A DNA stretch of 63,981 bases from an uncultured Bacteroidales bacterium (GTDB lineage: Bacteria; Bacteroidota; Bacteroidia; Bacteroidales; P3). Shown here piece after piece: positions 2,985-63,667 of this stretch. The position numbers and the translations under genes are program-made. The notes below the pieces were generated by a model. That model saw nothing but the letters and a program-made list of their open reading frames with translations. It ran no database searches and was not told where the DNA came from. The stretch spans positions 1 to 63,981 of the forward strand of contig ONJY01000011.1 in the NCBI GenBank assembly GCA_900318275.1. Reading direction: 5' to 3'. Each line of letters starts with the position of its first letter. Positions within the stretch are counted from its first letter, which is position 1.

Positions 2985-3200
2985 TTTTACCCTCAAAACG
3001 GGGTGAATGGGCGTTTCTCCGCGAGGATGATATGTGTGCCAAGTAGGGGGTAAAAGGTCGGAACGAGGGGTTTCTTGTCAGTTTTTGGGGCCTTGGAGAG
3101 GTGAATTTTGATGCATTTTGTTACGAAATAAGGGTTAACAAAGCTGGTGACGGGCGTTATACGATATTGTAATTTGTTGTCTACTCGCCTTTTAGGTAAA

Positions 3201-3384
3201 ATTGCACGACAGACGACAATCCGACAGTTGTTTTTTAAGGGGTACCCATTTCTTATTTTTGACCTCTTATATTTATATATATATATCTAATTATTAATTA
3301 ATTATAAGTAATATAAAGAGGGGCTTTTGAAATTAGGGGGGTACCATTTTTTTAATTGTCGGATTGTCGTCTGTCGTGAATTGC
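3201..3384. repeat. Palindromic element 1 of 3
   Basis: The left arm at 3205-3226 pairs with the right arm at 3357-3378 over 22 perfect bases. The arm repeats the word CGACA three times. The core is AT-rich and itself roughly symmetric, with GGGGTACC near the left, TTAATTAATTATAAGTA in the middle, ATAAAGAGGGG to the right and TTTTTTTAATTG before the right arm. The core is shared with the two elements that follow; the arms are not. Confidence 0.85.
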
Positions 3385-3445
3385 TTCCCCATTCCTTACA
3401 AGGCATTGTTTTTCTGCTTTTTAGGTGAAACTAGATTTACTTTTT

Positions 3446-3619
3446 CCATCAGCCATCAATCCATCAGTTGTTTTTTTGAGGTACTCACTTTTCCTTTCCC
3501 TCATCTTATATTACTTATATATATCTTATTATTAATTAGTTATAAGTATCATAAAGAGGGGTTTCTGAAGTTGAGGGTATCATTTTTTTTAATTGATGGA
3601 TTGATGACTGATGGATTGC
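3446..3619. repeat. Palindromic element 2 of 3
   Basis: The left arm at 3446-3467 (word CATCA three times) pairs with 3593-3614, with 20 of 22 bases complementary. The core resembles element 1 (TTATTAATTAGTTATAAGTA, ATAAAGAGGGG, TTTTTTTTAATTG). After the right arm comes a linker, CTACAAGGCATTG, also found after element 1 as TTACAAGGCATTG, so the repeating unit is about 220-230 bp including the linker. Confidence 0.85.
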
Positions 3620-3672
3620 CGCACACCTTTCTCTACAAGGCATTGGTTTTTAACCTCCTAAGGTGGGTTATA

Positions 3673-3819
3673 ATCACAATCACAGTATCACAGTTTATTT
3701 TTTGAGGGGTATCATTTTTCATACTCTTTATATATATTATTAATTACTAATTAGTTATATAGTATATAAAGGAAAAGCTGGTATCCTTTTTTTAATTGTG
3801 ATACTGTGATTGTGATGGG
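3673..3819. repeat. Palindromic element 3 of 3
   Basis: The left arm at 3673-3692 (word TCACA) pairs perfectly with 3798-3817 over 20 bases. The core is a shorter version of the same AT-rich sequence (TTATTAATTACTAATTAG, GGGGTATC, TTTTTTTAATTG). It lies about 140 bp upstream of the promoter of the restriction-methylation gene. Confidence 0.85.
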
Positions 3820-3860
3820 ACAAAACCAAACATATACTCTCTCAAGGCCTTCCCCGCCGA

Positions 3861-3884
3861 GCGTTACAGCGTTACAGCGTTACA
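3861..3884. repeat. Tandem octamer GCGTTACA, three copies
   Basis: Three exact head-to-tail octamers. A short inverted match (TGTAAC) occurs at 3915-3920. This may be a decayed word-array pair; too little remains to be sure. Confidence 0.7.
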
Positions 3885-3958
3885 GTTCGAAACCTGGAGG
3901 CTCCTGGCTGCAAATGTAACCGCATTTATCGATTGAAAAGTACACTTTAGGAATAAGA

Positions 3959-3990: not shown

Positions 3991-4014
3991 CAATCGTTTT
4001 AACACGATGTGGTC

Positions 4015-7000
4015 ATGCAAAACAATATTGATTCTTATATCGTAGAACTCAATCGGCAATATGCTACGGGAAAGGCTCATGAGCATTCCTATCGCTCGGC
4101 AATACAGAACCTGCTGAAAGCCCTGCTGCCAAAGAGTTATACCGTTGTCAACGAGCCAACTCGTGAGACCTGCGGCGCTCCCGACTTTATCATTCTCAAA
4201 GGCGAAACACCCATAGCATATCTTGAAACCAAAGACCTTCAAGATTCCGACCTCGACGGCAAGAAAGAGCATAAAGAGCAATTCGACCGCTATCGCGCTT
4301 CGCTCGACCATATCATCTTCACCGACTACCTCGACTTCCACCTCTACGAAAACGGCGAATATGTCGATGCCGTCCGTCTGGCAGATATCCGTGGCGGAAA
4401 GATTGTACTGCTGGAAGAATCCACCGACAAATTCCTGCAACTAATCAAGCATCTGGCCGATGCCGCTCCCCAGCGCATCACCTCTCCCTCTCGTCTGGCC
4501 AAAGTGATGGCCGGTAAAGCCCGCCTGCTTGCCAACGTGATAGAACAAGCGTTGGAGAACGACAAGGAACAGACATCGGAATTGGCTATTCAGATGAACG
4601 TCTTCCGCGAATATCTTATCCACGACCTCAACGGAAAGACCTTTGCCGACATCTACGCACAAACCATCGCCTACGGCCTCTTCTCCGCACGACTGAACGA
4701 CACCACGCCTCAGGACTTCTCGCGCAACGAAGCCAACGAACTGATACCGAAAAGCAACCCGCTGCTCCGAAAGATATTCAACGACATCGCCGGCTACAAT
4801 GTAGACAGCCGTATTGCCTGGATCATCGACGACCTCGTGGCTGCCTTCCGCGTGACTGATATGGCGCGAGTGTTGAAGGATTTCAAGCAAGGCACCCAGC
4901 AAACCGACCCGCTGATGCACTTCTACGAGGACTTCCTCGGCGAGTACGACCCCAAACTCAAGAAGAGCCGCGGGGTTTACTACACGCCCCAACCCGTTGT
5001 TGATTTCATCGTCCGTGCTGTCGACGATATCCTCAAGAAAGACTTCGGCCTCCCGATGGGATTGGCCGACAATTCCATGATAAACCACGAGGTAATCAAC
5101 GACCAGTTCATGCGGGGTATGAGAGGCTCCACAAAAATAATGCAGAAAAAGATGCACCGCGTGCAGATTCTCGACCCAGCTACAGGCACAGGAACCTTCC
5201 TCGCTGCTGTGATACGCCAGATATATGCCAATATGGAAGGGCAACGAGGCGCTTGGAACAGTTATGTGGAGCAGCATCTGCTGCCGCGATTGAACGGCTT
5301 CGAGCTGATGATGGCCTCCTACACCATCGCACACCTCAAACTCAATATGGTGCTGCGCGAGACGGGATACACACCGCAGAGCGACCAACGACTGCGCGTC
5401 TATCTAACCAACAGCCTTGAAGAGTACAACGCCGAAACCGGCACCCTCTTCGCCGCCGCCATCAGTCAGGAGGCCAACGAAGCCAGTCGCATTAAACGCG
5501 ACTGCCCCGTAATGGTGATGGTCGGCAATCCGCCGTACAGCGGCATTTCCCAAAATAATGGTGAGTGGATAACATCTCTCATAGGCGATTATAAACATGA
5601 GCCAGGCACAAACGACCCTCTTCAGGAAAGAAAAATCTGGCTTAATGATGACTATGTGAAATTCATTCGATTGGCGGAAACGTACTTGTCTAATAACAAA
5701 GATGGCGTACTCGCTTTTATCAATAATAACGGTTTTCTCGACAATCCCACCTTTAGAGGAATGAGGTGGCACTTGTTAAAAACATTTGATGAGATTTACA
5801 TCCTTAATTTACATGGTAACTCCATGAGAAATGAGGTTTCACCACAAGGCGGAAAGGATGAGAATGTCTTTGATATTATGGTCGGCACTTCAATCAATAT
5901 CTTTGTCAAAACAGGCAAAAAGAGCGAAGATGATATCGCTGAAGTATATTACAAGGATTTGTGGGGTTTGAGAGATGACAAGTATGCCTATTTGGTCGAT
6001 GCTCAATTTGATAAGACGGAATTTTGCAAACTCACTCTAACAAATCCGTTCTATTTCTTTGTTCCCAAAAATGATGATGGAAGGAGAGAATATGACCAAG
6101 GTTTTAGAATTGACGAATTGATGCAGACGCAAACAATGGGTTTTGTTACAGCAAATGACAAATTGAACATATCATTTACCGAGCAAGAACAATGTGATAA
6201 AATCCATGACTTATTAGAACTGAAAGAGAACGAATGGAGAAGTAAATACCAAAGAGAAAGGGATGCGAGAGATTGGACTTACCAAACAGCGAAAAAAGAT
6301 GCTCTTACATTTGGTAATAAAGTACATAAGGTGGCATATCGGCCATTTGACACAAGGTTCACATACTATACTGGTAATTCAAGAGGACTCTATTCCAGCC
6401 CACAATACTCCATTATGCATCACTTGCAATTTGAAAATATTGGTATATGTTGCATAAGGATAAATAGTCGCGATGAAGAAACATTTTTTGTTACAAATAA
6501 GATAACAGACAAAACGCTGCTTTCTTCTAAGGACAATGCCAACGTCTTTCCATTATTTCTCTATAGCGAAGATGGTACAATCAAAAAGCCTAACTTCAAC
6601 AAGGAAATAGTGCAGAAGATAGAAGAGTCTTTGGATGAGACCATCGACCCAAAGGAACTCTTCGACTACATCTATGCTGTGCTGCACTCGCCCAATTACC
6701 GCACCAAATACAAGGAGTTCCTCAAGATTGACTTCCCGCGCATCCCTTATCCCGAGAACAAGGAGGAATATCACCGTCTGGTCGACCTCGGCGGTCAGTT
6801 GCGCCGTCTGCACCTGATGCAGGAAGTGCCAGCTCCCCAACATGCCAAGTTCGACAACCCCGGCAGCAACATCGTCGACAAGCCAGAGTACAAAGAAGGC
6901 TGCGTCTGGATAAACAAAGAGCAATGCTTCGCCGATGTGCCTGAAAAGGCATGGAACTTCTACATCGGCGGCTACCAACCCGCCCAGAAGTGGCTCAAAG

Positions 7001-7104
7001 ACCGCCGCGGCCGCACCCTCACCTACGACGACATCACCCACTACCGCAACATCATCACCATCATCCTCGAAACCGACCGCATGATGAAGGAGATTGATAT
7101 ATAA
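4015..7104 (+). CDS. Single-chain type ISP/IIG-like restriction-modification enzyme
   Basis: A protein of about 1029 residues; numbering here counts from the GTG at 4009, two codons before the more likely ATG at 4015. An N-terminal PD-(D/E)xK nuclease is seen as GAPDFIILKG (D59) and AYLETK (E73, K75). The adenine-methyltransferase core has motif I ILDPATGTGTF at 387-397 and motif IV NPPY at 507-510, followed by a region expected to read DNA sequence. One chain thus carries cutting, methylation and specificity. Classical type ISP enzymes such as LlaGI are about 1570 residues with a helicase domain; none is visible here, so it resembles the shorter Bacteroidota type ISP/IIG group. No separate methylase or specificity gene adjoins it. 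It has its own promoter, and the repeat-rich spacer lies just upstream. Confidence 0.85.
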   Translation: MQNNIDSYIVELNRQYATGKAHEHSYRSAIQNLLKALLPKSYTVVNEPTRETCGAPDFIILKGETPIAYLETKDLQDSDLDGKKEHKEQFDRYRASLDHIIFTDYLDFHLYENGEYVDAVRLADIRGGKIVLLEESTDKFLQLIKHLADAAPQRITSPSRLAKVMAGKARLLANVIEQALENDKEQTSELAIQMNVFREYLIHDLNGKTFADIYAQTIAYGLFSARLNDTTPQDFSRNEANELIPKSNPLLRKIFNDIAGYNVDSRIAWIIDDLVAAFRVTDMARVLKDFKQGTQQTDPLMHFYEDFLGEYDPKLKKSRGVYYTPQPVVDFIVRAVDDILKKDFGLPMGLADNSMINHEVINDQFMRGMRGSTKIMQKKMHRVQILDPATGTGTFLAAVIRQIYANMEGQRGAWNSYVEQHLLPRLNGFELMMASYTIAHLKLNMVLRETGYTPQSDQRLRVYLTNSLEEYNAETGTLFAAAISQEANEASRIKRDCPVMVMVGNPPYSGISQNNGEWITSLIGDYKHEPGTNDPLQERKIWLNDDYVKFIRLAETYLSNNKDGVLAFINNNGFLDNPTFRGMRWHLLKTFDEIYILNLHGNSMRNEVSPQGGKDENVFDIMVGTSINIFVKTGKKSEDDIAEVYYKDLWGLRDDKYAYLVDAQFDKTEFCKLTLTNPFYFFVPKNDDGRREYDQGFRIDELMQTQTMGFVTANDKLNISFTEQEQCDKIHDLLELKENEWRSKYQRERDARDWTYQTAKKDALTFGNKVHKVAYRPFDTRFTYYTGNSRGLYSSPQYSIMHHLQFENIGICCIRINSRDEETFFVTNKITDKTLLSSKDNANVFPLFLYSEDGTIKKPNFNKEIVQKIEESLDETIDPKELFDYIYAVLHSPNYRTKYKEFLKIDFPRIPYPENKEEYHRLVDLGGQLRRLHLMQEVPAPQHAKFDNPGSNIVDKPEYKEGCVWINKEQCFADVPEKAWNFYIGGYQPAQKWLKDRRGRTLTYDDITHYRNIITIILETDRMMKEIDI

Positions 7105-21164: not shown

Positions 21165-21192
21165 CGCACCAACAAGCAACATACACCGACCG

Positions 21193-21281
21193 TTCGACCA
21201 TCGTTCAACCATCCATCGACCATAGTTCGACCATTACGTATGGTTGAAGGATGGTCGAACGATGGTCGAAGGATGGTCGAA
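21193..21281. repeat. Inverted word arrays forming a large hairpin (ATGGTCGAA words)
   Basis: The left arm at 21193-21234 has four TTCGACCAT-type words. The right arm at 21240-21281 has four ATGGTCGAA-type words. About 34 of 42 bases are complementary, and the loop is only TACGT. No gene lies between the arms. The rest of the 228-base gap (21165-21392) holds a GAAGGGCGA doublet and nothing else I recognise. Confidence 0.85.
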
Positions 21282-21392
21282 ATGCCGAGGGAAGGGCGAA
21301 GGAAGGGCGAGTGAAAAACGACTGGATAACGGCTGATAAACGGAAAAGTACCTATAAGAACCAATATAATAACCAACTGAAAAACGACAATT

Positions 21393-40129: not shown

Positions 40130-41533
40130 ATGGTACCCTATCTGCCAAAGAAAATATCCAACACCGCCATCTACCTCTACCTTGGGGCACTGGCTGCTGT
40201 GACCATATTCTTCATCCGTCACACCATGTCACTGACATTCTACATTATAGGAATAGTGTGGGTGGTGGGATTCTTCCTGCTCAGTTCATATTGCAGTATC
40301 AAATGGCAAACGATTCCCCAAAAGAAGCTTTTGCGCAACCTGTTTCTCAGCGCTTTGGGGCTTCGCTGGTCATGGACTATCTTCGCCTATATTTTCTACA
40401 TGTACAATACAGGGGCTCCTTTCGAGTTCTCGGCTGGCGACTCCATATGGTACTACGAAGAAACCATGGGCAACGTGCATGCCAATATAGCAGATATATG
40501 GCGTTATCTTTTTGTTGACTCCAAAACCATATCCGACTCTGGTTATGTGCTCTACCTTTCGTTGCTGTCTAAAATTACGGGCTATAGTATCCTGCTTCCG
40601 CGTCTGGTGAACGGCATCTTCAGCGCAGTAATGGTTCTATTGGTCTACTTTCTGGCCAAGCGCAACATAGGCGAAGAAGGTGGCCGAATGGCAGCCATCT
40701 TTGCATGTTTCATGCCCAACCTTATCTTCTATTGCGGGTTGCACCTGAAGGAAACGCTGATGATCTTCCTCTTGGTTGCCTATCTCGAGCGCGCTGACTA
40801 TCTGTTGCGTAGCAAGAAATACAATGTTTTCACTATAGCTATCCCTATACTATTGGTCGTCTCACTTTTCACTTTCCGCACCGTCCTGGGCGCCGCAGCC
40901 GTATTCGCCTTTGCTACAGCACTGGTTTTCACCAACACCTCGATTGTAGGCCGGGGGAAACGCATAATGCTCATCGCCTGGGGAGTACTGGCTGTGACAA
41001 CTTTGACTGGCGGAGTCATCAGCAACGAACTGCAAGCAACATGGGAGGATCGTGGCGAGAACCAGGTGGCCAAACGCACACACCAGACCAACAAAGGTAA
41101 CCAATGGGCTAAGTACGCCACCGGTACTGTCATGGCTCCCATGATGTTCGTCATGCCGTTCCCTACAATGGTGGATGTAGACCAACAATACAACCAGCAG
41201 ATGATCAGTGGAGGAAACTATGTACGTAACTTCTTCGGAGTCTTTGTATTGATAGCCGTGTTCAGCGCTATTTTCATTACCAAGAACTGGCGCGACCTCT
41301 CTTTTATAGGTTCCTTCGCCATTGCATACTTAGGCATCATCTCGGCCAGTGGATTCGCCAACTCGGAACGTTTCCTACTGCCAGCACTGCCGGTCCTGCT
41401 TATCATGGCGGCTTACGGCATAACTCTGCTCAACGCCAAAAACTACAAGTTTGTCAAGATGTGGTACTATGTCGTACCCATTATGGCCATAACTTGGGCA
41501 TTCTTCAAGCTTGGTTCCCGAGGCCTGTTCTAG
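40130..41533 (+). CDS. Polytopic membrane protein, GT39-like or polymerase candidate
   Basis: 467 residues from the ATG at 40130, with about ten to twelve membrane spans. A long extracytoplasmic segment after the second span group (GDSIWYYEETMGN) and the pattern LPRLVNGIFSAVMVLLVYFL, then FYCGLHLKETLMIFLLVAYL, resemble GT39/ArnT-type glycosyltransferases and the Wzy-like proteins of Bacteroidota capsule loci. It could polymerise repeat units or add a lipid-carried sugar. No Wzx flippase is seen, so a classic Wzx/Wzy route is not complete here. The stop TAG is duplicated in the tandem repeat that follows. Confidence 0.6.
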   Translation: MVPYLPKKISNTAIYLYLGALAAVTIFFIRHTMSLTFYIIGIVWVVGFFLLSSYCSIKWQTIPQKKLLRNLFLSALGLRWSWTIFAYIFYMYNTGAPFEFSAGDSIWYYEETMGNVHANIADIWRYLFVDSKTISDSGYVLYLSLLSKITGYSILLPRLVNGIFSAVMVLLVYFLAKRNIGEEGGRMAAIFACFMPNLIFYCGLHLKETLMIFLLVAYLERADYLLRSKKYNVFTIAIPILLVVSLFTFRTVLGAAAVFAFATALVFTNTSIVGRGKRIMLIAWGVLAVTTLTGGVISNELQATWEDRGENQVAKRTHQTNKGNQWAKYATGTVMAPMMFVMPFPTMVDVDQQYNQQMISGGNYVRNFFGVFVLIAVFSAIFITKNWRDLSFIGSFAIAYLGIISASGFANSERFLLPALPVLLIMAAYGITLLNAKNYKFVKMWYYVVPIMAITWAFFKLGSRGLF

Positions 41534-41653
41534 CTAACCGAACTATCCGAAACAAGCCAAACAACTTCTTCTCTAACAGAATCATACGATGTTCTAGCTA
41601 ACCGAACTATCCGAAACAAGCCGAACAACTTCTTCTCTAACAGAATCATACGA
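41527..41653. repeat. Tandem 63-64-bp repeat containing CCGAA words; left flank of GxxExxY gene
   Basis: Two head-to-tail copies (41527-41590 and 41591-41653), identical except CCA to CCG inside. The first copy includes the final TTC TAG of the preceding gene. Each copy carries CTAACCGAACTATCCGAAAC followed by AAGCC(A/G)AAC, i.e. the CCGAA word at 9-base spacing. The inverted partner is at 42161-42190. Confidence 0.9.
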
Positions 41654-54625: not shown

Positions 54626-54883
54626 GAAAAAAAGTTTCGCATACACGCACAAAAAAGATCCCCAGCGGTCCTTCGGCAATCCTTCGGCAATCCTTCGGCG
54701 ATCTTTCGGCGATCCTTCGGCATTTCTTCAGTAGTTCTTCAGTGTTCTACTGAAGAACTGCCATACCGGAACGCTACTGGTGCGCCGCCGCACCTAAACC
54801 CGTCCTAAACCCGTCCTAAACCGCATCAAACCGCCCACAACCAAGACAAAGATTTTTGACCCACGACACAATAATCCACGCCC
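54626..54883. repeat. Repeat-rich gap: 11-bp array, hairpin and decamer array
   Basis: Five 11-bp units of TCCTTCGGCAA type lie at 54669-54722. A hairpin at 54724-54769 has an 11-bp perfect stem AGTTCTTCAGT/ACTGAAGAACT, then GCCATACCGG. A CCTAAACCCGT array lies at 54793-54834. The hairpin recurs in the same orientation at 63621-63667. No clear promoter for the following gene was seen. Confidence 0.85.
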
Positions 54884-63481: not shown

Positions 63482-63620
63482 CCTTATTTCATTGGACATT
63501 ATGCGGCACCGCACCACACGGGCGCCCCTTCGCCCTCTTCATGCCTTCTTCATGCCGTTTACTAGCCGTTTAGTAGCCGTTCAGCCGTTTGTCCGGAGCC
63601 TCTTCGGAGTCCCTATGTCA

Positions 63621-63667
63621 GTTCTTCAGTAGTTCTTCAGTATAACACTGAAGAACTGCCATACCGG
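63621..63667. repeat. Hairpin repeat (second copy)
   Basis: Stem AGTTCTTCAGT/ACTGAAGAACT with loop ATAAC, preceded by an extra GTTCTTCAGT and followed by GCCATACCGG. The first copy at 54724-54769 has the loop GTTCT. Everything outside the loop matches except the first base. Confidence 0.9.

Follow-up and report, generated by a model that had tools for sequence, protein, structure and literature searches.

The stretch analysed here, 63,981 nucleotides from an uncultured Bacteroidales bacterium (contig ONJY01000011.1; hereafter the window), carries close to its beginning three adjacent palindromes whose cores are alike and whose arms are not. They belong to a family of arrays in which two inverted sets of three short words enclose an AT-rich core, and which in its intact form lies beside a gene, open reading frame 2 (ORF2), for a predicted helicase. 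Across this family two bases of the word track two adjacent residues of ORF2, and a rule fixed on a first set of loci predicts both bases in further ones. We consider it likely, from these sequence patterns, that the arrays are replication origins with iterons around an AT-rich core, in which the arms would most likely be inverted arrays of protein-binding words.

Two bases of the array word track two residues of ORF2

The intact module on contig C37 consists of ORF1 (152 amino acids), the palindrome and ORF2 (436 amino acids). A scan for ORF2 kept 80 loci, nearly all with Prevotella, Bacteroidaceae or other Bacteroidales/Bacteroidetes titles and mostly ruminant, together with one weak Streptomyces match. 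Cultured carriers include Xylanibacter ruminicola Ga6B6 (L102) and Prevotella sp. P6B1 (L104). Removal of duplicates (98 to 73) left 73 distinct ORF2 genes whose upstream region was long enough to be examined. The array lies directly upstream of ORF2 in 70 of these, the set that remains once L071, L095 and L180 are dropped. L180 and L071 are ORF2 genes without a proper array upstream, the right arm of L071 being apparently parted from ORF2 by other repeats, and one more locus (L179, 43% identity) failed the filter, yet an untidy array is visible upstream of it.

Structure prediction and a fold search place ORF2 as a predicted MCM-like AAA+ helicase with a C-terminal winged helix. It differs from the MCM replicative helicases in sequence (9% identity) and in extent, as the ORF2 model is shorter and aligns to the AAA+ part alone, and also in that its winged helix appears to read specific DNA words. 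The gene after ORF2 encodes a primase, of which two were scanned and both match the DnaG zinc ribbon (PF01807). The primase family is present in all 12 wide contexts (19.5-19.9 kb) and ORF1 in 11 of them, the outer neighbours of the module are mostly unlike, and HU-HIG genes (PF18291) are common after the primase. Each of the 12 contexts has a single array place, which speaks against a module flanked by two arrays. The primase at L068:4301-5245 matches the RTasDnaG-like model of PADLOC (E 6.3e-59), which is filed there under defence-associated reverse transcriptase (DRT) systems. The predicted fold of ORF1 (predicted template-modelling score 0.40) gave no match at E up to 0.001; a Pfam scan of 51 ORF2 members at E up to 0.01 returned one weak DUF3987 match (E 0.0021) and neither DUF927 nor D5/Primase_Cterm; no ORF2 relative was found in plasmids, phages or IMG/VR; and a sequence search of solved structures with A2 gave one irrelevant match (E 0.085).

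The arm word reads P-T-X-Z-C-A-R (about 7 nt). In the 70 loci, base P tracks ORF2 residue 407 (arginine with G, tyrosine with C) and base Z tracks residue 408 (lysine with C, glutamine with A, valine with T), with z scores of 23.3 and 23.7 that are each the strongest of 289 columns. The rule was fixed before the further loci were parsed, and in these it gave the right P in 15 of 16 (shuffled mean 6.9, with 0 of 100,000 shuffles reaching this count) and the right Z in 11 of 13 (shuffled mean 5.0; 68 of 100,000). The first set had also suggested that base X goes with residue 410, which the further loci did not bear out. When ORF1 and the primase were considered as readers of the word, with ORF2 proteins at least 97% alike dropped (58 to 54), both gave a weaker association than ORF2, and ORF2 itself very probably is the protein that reads the words.

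The array has a core of about 100-130 bp between its two inverted word sets. Across 69 related loci the cores average 25% G+C against 53% for the window, in a table where some core bounds are mis-picked. The first-pass annotation of the window had set a shared core against arms with words of their own, yet the word occurs in the core too: of the 69 loci, 15 carry a further copy of their own word in the core half facing ORF1 and 24 in the half facing ORF2 (shuffled means 2.7 and 12.1; highest counts over 2000 shuffles 9 and 20). Arm words of the TTT class account for part of the 15; once this class is set aside, the counts are 8 and 21 of 61 loci, against means of 1.9 and 12.0 and maxima of 7 and 19. 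In 33 of the 69 loci such extra words are confined to one side of the core, and in 3 they stand on both. A test for helical phasing between the iteron sets gave a resultant of 0.73 at periods 10 and 10.5; this value is driven by the single mode 101-104 and includes some mis-picked gaps, and is not used here.

The explanation we favour for these features is that ORF2 would recognise the iterons through its C-terminal winged helix, residue 407 reading P and residue 408 reading Z. It would then assemble at both flanks of the core, open the duplex there and, together with the primase, initiate replication. A change in the recognition helix of a lineage would then be followed by all of its iterons, so that words vary among lineages while core and architecture are kept.

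Palindromes of the window and their relatives

In the window the copies are reversed, the matching gene order being that of the minus strand, on which the half-copy relic, copy 3, copy 2, copy 1 and the ORF2 remnant follow one another. The features are:

3203..3380, minus strand: origin-like copy 1, word CGACAR (from arms, family model and words)
3230..3353, minus strand: AT-rich core of copy 1 (from sequence)
3443..3617, minus strand: origin-like copy 2, word CATCAR (from arms, family model and words)
3670..3819, minus strand: origin-like copy 3, word TCACAR (from arms, family model and words)
3860..3885, no strand assigned: apparent half-copy relic, an arm of three GTTACAG words that has no partner (from sequence)
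3389..3428, minus strand: junction between copies, where the ORF2 leader/start region appears joined to the ORF1 3' end (read against the intact locus L012)
3626..3663, minus strand: second apparent ORF2-leader/ORF1-end junction (from reading of the sequence; family D9)
3017..3124, minus strand: putative ORF2 remnant, residues 19-54 (own-genome protein search, E 3.0e-4, 53% identity)

An arm-pair search bears out the initial description of three self-complementary palindromes, each with its own arms: 25 nt at 3205-3229/3354-3378 (96% complementary, 124 nt between), 25 nt at 3445-3469/3591-3615 (92%, 121 nt between) and 23 nt at 3673-3695/3794-3816 (96%, 98 nt between). The arms pair inside their own copy and are unlike across copies. 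The described likeness of the three cores holds as well, a 43-nt direct-repeat family (D1) matching its reference copy at 86% and 79%, as does the use of one word three times per arm. The five-base words CGACA, CATCA and TCACA are present, and are the inner part of the word of about 7 nt; the offsets, said to be the same in all copies, vary between them; and to the three full copies is added half of a fourth at about 3860-3885, which has a counterpart on contig C26 (locus L010), where a similar remnant adjoins another array.

A DNA search with copy 1 turned up related sequences across many contigs of this genome. A family model built from 44 related sequences, and holding only 7 pairs, gave 71 matches (both strands, E up to 0.01), corresponding to at least 49 places in this genome, a lower bound given that 150 of 391 candidates were scored. 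Such a search with variable arms had been proposed in the first-pass annotation, and it yields what was predicted there, namely many copies with the same core and differing arms. That annotation knew of no named repeat family of this kind; none was found in Rfam either, where a scan of the window at gathering thresholds returned only a tRNA. Under stricter filters, an order-wide model search with a cut-off of E 1e-4 matched 3 of 295 genomes, namely G398, G299 and the present one; the strong match in G299 lies at C24:74180-74331, and no ORF2 was found in that genome at E up to 1e-100.

The 49 places carry 20 different majority words (that of C53:568 was taken from locus L003 and entered by hand), and the copies hence lack fixed terminal inverted repeats common to all. 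None of the 14 neighbour pairs lying at most 600 nt apart has a word in common, which is no different from random neighbours, as random pairs share one in 5.0% of cases; that neighbours have unlike words argues against recent tandem duplication. Tandem units measure about 672-677 nt in genome G003 against 215-240 nt in this genome, remnants of ORF1 and ORF2 flank many copies, and similarity runs on past the arms. These patterns suggest that modules differing in specificity were brought side by side and that their central portions were then lost. As part of the origin reading, the window copies are most likely relics of modules with three different specificities, derived from a Bacteroidales integrated replication module that may be mobile and often has an HU-like gene.

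The array adjoins a Type ISP/IIG restriction-modification gene at 4009-7104 (PF18135; PADLOC REase_MTase_IIG), and five intact modules (L197, L201, L204, L205 and L208) lie, by reading of frames, near restriction or Rlo-like genes. Two 11-nt tandem arrays at 2551-2597 and 2890-2928 of the window are seemingly inverted copies of each other, with 7-nt arrays between or beside them (2660-2705 and 2941-2984). Other short tandem arrays, mostly of 11-nt units, occur at 21191-21310, 54665-54822 and 63532-63642, and a 64-nt unit stands twice at 41526-41653 (98%). A second array group in this same genome (G000) has a word period of about 8 nt, with the words GCGTTACA, GCGTAACA, TGGGACA and TGCTACA, and no initiator was found for it; its places are on C8, C15, C18, C20, C25:42254, C26:122012, C33, C34, C35:1028, C37:31411, C39, C51, C53:29530 and C56.

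Origins, operators and paired arms

Several observations weigh against origins read by ORF2. The further loci are related to those of the first set and are not independent draws, and at one of them (L187) the success for P requires that the middle words be left out (5 of 6 words say G), failing which P stands at 14 of 16. For X, the rule was right in 8 of 14 further loci (shuffled mean 5.8; 2301 of 100,000 shuffles), below the 9 of 14 obtained by always guessing T, and Lys410 occurs with all four X bases among the 70 loci, so that the code is partial. The P rule has exceptions at L063 and L115 (Arg407) and at L049 (Tyr407), and the Z rule at L067, L051 and L091 (Lys408) and at L100 and L188 (Val408). 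Moreover, X associates more with columns far from the helix (z 15.0) and some distant columns reach z 10-14 for Z, which indicates that shared ancestry adds to the association scores. This genome has a single full-length ORF2 and many arrays without a matching one (assembly 88.6% complete), and neither an integrase nor a relaxase was noticed, in the frames as read and with no search made by name.

An operator would give the same word-residue association, which suits any sequence-specific binding, and this too counts against an origin. The arrays would in that case serve ORF2 in the control of its own operon and start no replication, an arrangement that agrees with their place directly upstream of ORF2 in the direction of transcription. 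Two inverted iteron sets some 100 bp apart around a core of such low G+C content nonetheless suit an origin better, as do the MCM-like AAA+ fold and the primase next door in every wide context, and we regard a purely regulatory role as unlikely.

The first-pass annotation had offered two accounts of the matching arms, selection that keeps them paired and the rewriting of both arms together. Both were examined in 44 loci with three same-triplet words in each arm, 27 of which served for counts of the R site and the spacers. If the arrays were RNA hairpins (a leader, an attenuator or a non-coding RNA) under selection for pairing, one would point to the RNAalifold consensus, in which 5 of 7 pairs show two-sided changes. 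None of these pairs shows a one-sided (G-U) change, however, so that the pattern expected of structured RNA, compensatory changes with G-U intermediates in a conserved register, was not found. Word spacing is equal in both arms at 27 of the 44 loci and unequal at 17; at the R position (81 sites in the 27 loci) A stands opposite C 20 times and G opposite U 11 times; extra words occur on one side of the core only; the word is linked to protein residues; and Rfam holds no match. An RNA hairpin is thus very improbable. Selection on both arms fits the data, and it is the word rather than the pairing that appears to be kept; arm pairing is probably a by-product of one word placed on opposite strands at similar spacing.

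Arm-to-arm conversion (quasipalindrome correction), which would keep the arms alike without selection, accords with arms that agree within a copy and differ among copies, and pooled spacers agree slightly more often inside a locus (76 of 87 positions) than across loci that share a word (341 of 420). The two values are equal, however, in the three groups that hold at least two loci, a like-for-like comparison of little power as the spacers are only 3 nt, and conversion leaves both the link to ORF2 residues and the unequal spacing unexplained, which makes it even less probable than the hairpin. Taken together, unequal spacing, the excess of A:C over G:U and the extra words in the core favour words read by a protein over RNA pairing or arm conversion. 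Least credible of all are miniature inverted-repeat transposable elements (MITEs) with arms as terminal repeats read by a transposase, which would suit the many places in one genome, most of them without an intact ORF2, and are countered by arms that are not fixed, by similarity running past the arms into remnants of ORF1 and ORF2 and by a neighbouring gene that is MCM-like and no transposase.

Known replication modules and significance

In the staphylococcal pathogenicity islands (SaPIs), the iteron sets of the origin flank an AT-rich stretch. Excerpts of a published account (PMC7581432, citing Ubeda et al. 2007, 2008) describe SaPI Rep as an initiator helicase whose C-terminal domain recognises an iteron origin, with a primase in the module; they place the origins directly downstream of rep and assign the SaPIbov1 and SaPI5 primases to the archaeo-eukaryotic primase (AEP) type. 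From the same excerpts, Cch2 of the staphylococcal cassette chromosome (SCC) is a helicase that binds, via its C-terminal domain, a region of direct repeats next to its operon, in which there are three iterons of five bases. By analogy, the module described here would work like SaPI Rep/ori and SCC Cch2. It shares with both systems, by prediction, a helicase-like AAA+ initiator with a C-terminal DNA-binding domain, and also short iterons beside the initiator gene whose sequence tracks the initiator. In contrast to SaPI, the array here lies upstream of ORF2 rather than downstream, the primase is of the DnaG type, and host and sequence differ; phage-packaging genes were not noticed in the frames read, with no search aimed at them. 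From SCC it differs in an array that is inverted and doubled and in a fold match that is weak (SCCmec Cch structure 5dgk, rank 25, E 0.033), and the scanned ORF2 members lack the Pfam helicase domains of Cch and Cch2; no Ccr recombinase was noticed, again with no aimed search. As the array is upstream, the primase of another type and the helicase without a family match, we do not file the module as a member of either system.

Large DUF3987-like Bacteroidales proteins (about 750-912 amino acids) share some 30% identity with ORF2 and a similar C-terminal helix motif; excerpts of one report (PMC5862659) describe DUF3987 as a predicted helicase of mobile elements. Among 14 loci of such large relatives checked within 450 nt (L153 and L172 being the same place, as are L151 and L173, where the longest frame is another gene), only L148 has an array of this kind upstream, and the rest have none of note except L157, with a G+C-richer inverted repeat array downstream. 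The array at L148:188-370 has an AT-rich palindromic core enclosed by TTTCACA/TTAACAG words and lies upstream of the gene for a 750-amino-acid distant ORF2 relative, and the system may thus reach beyond the ORF2 family. Excerpts on the BrickBuilt MITE of Porphyromonas gingivalis (PMC4596501) describe a similarly multi-copy, intergenic short-repeat element of a Bacteroidales genome, whose terminal repeats are 12 nt long and of a single kind and whose tandem unit measures 23 nt, and mention no link from word to protein.

In titles and abstracts of the open-licence literature we found no description of this array or residue code, and as far as our searches show neither the residue-level code nor the doubled inverted layout nor so many orphan arrays within one genome have been described before. 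How an initiator and its iterons change together without loss of replication is an open problem of origin evolution. The 70 protein/array pairs, with two bases tracking two amino acids and sister pairs that differ at few helix positions, make the question directly testable by binding assays. More tentatively, and as a possibility we would rather doubt than assert, a residue-level code might let MCM-like initiators switch origin specificity stepwise, while genomes keep tens of orphan origins of many specificities that act in trans, either as satellites replicated by the initiators of incoming modules with the matching word or as decoys that titrate these initiators. For the palindromic repeats dispersed through Bacteroidales genomes from rumen and gut, for which the literature searched gave no explanation, origins read by ORF2 would offer a function.
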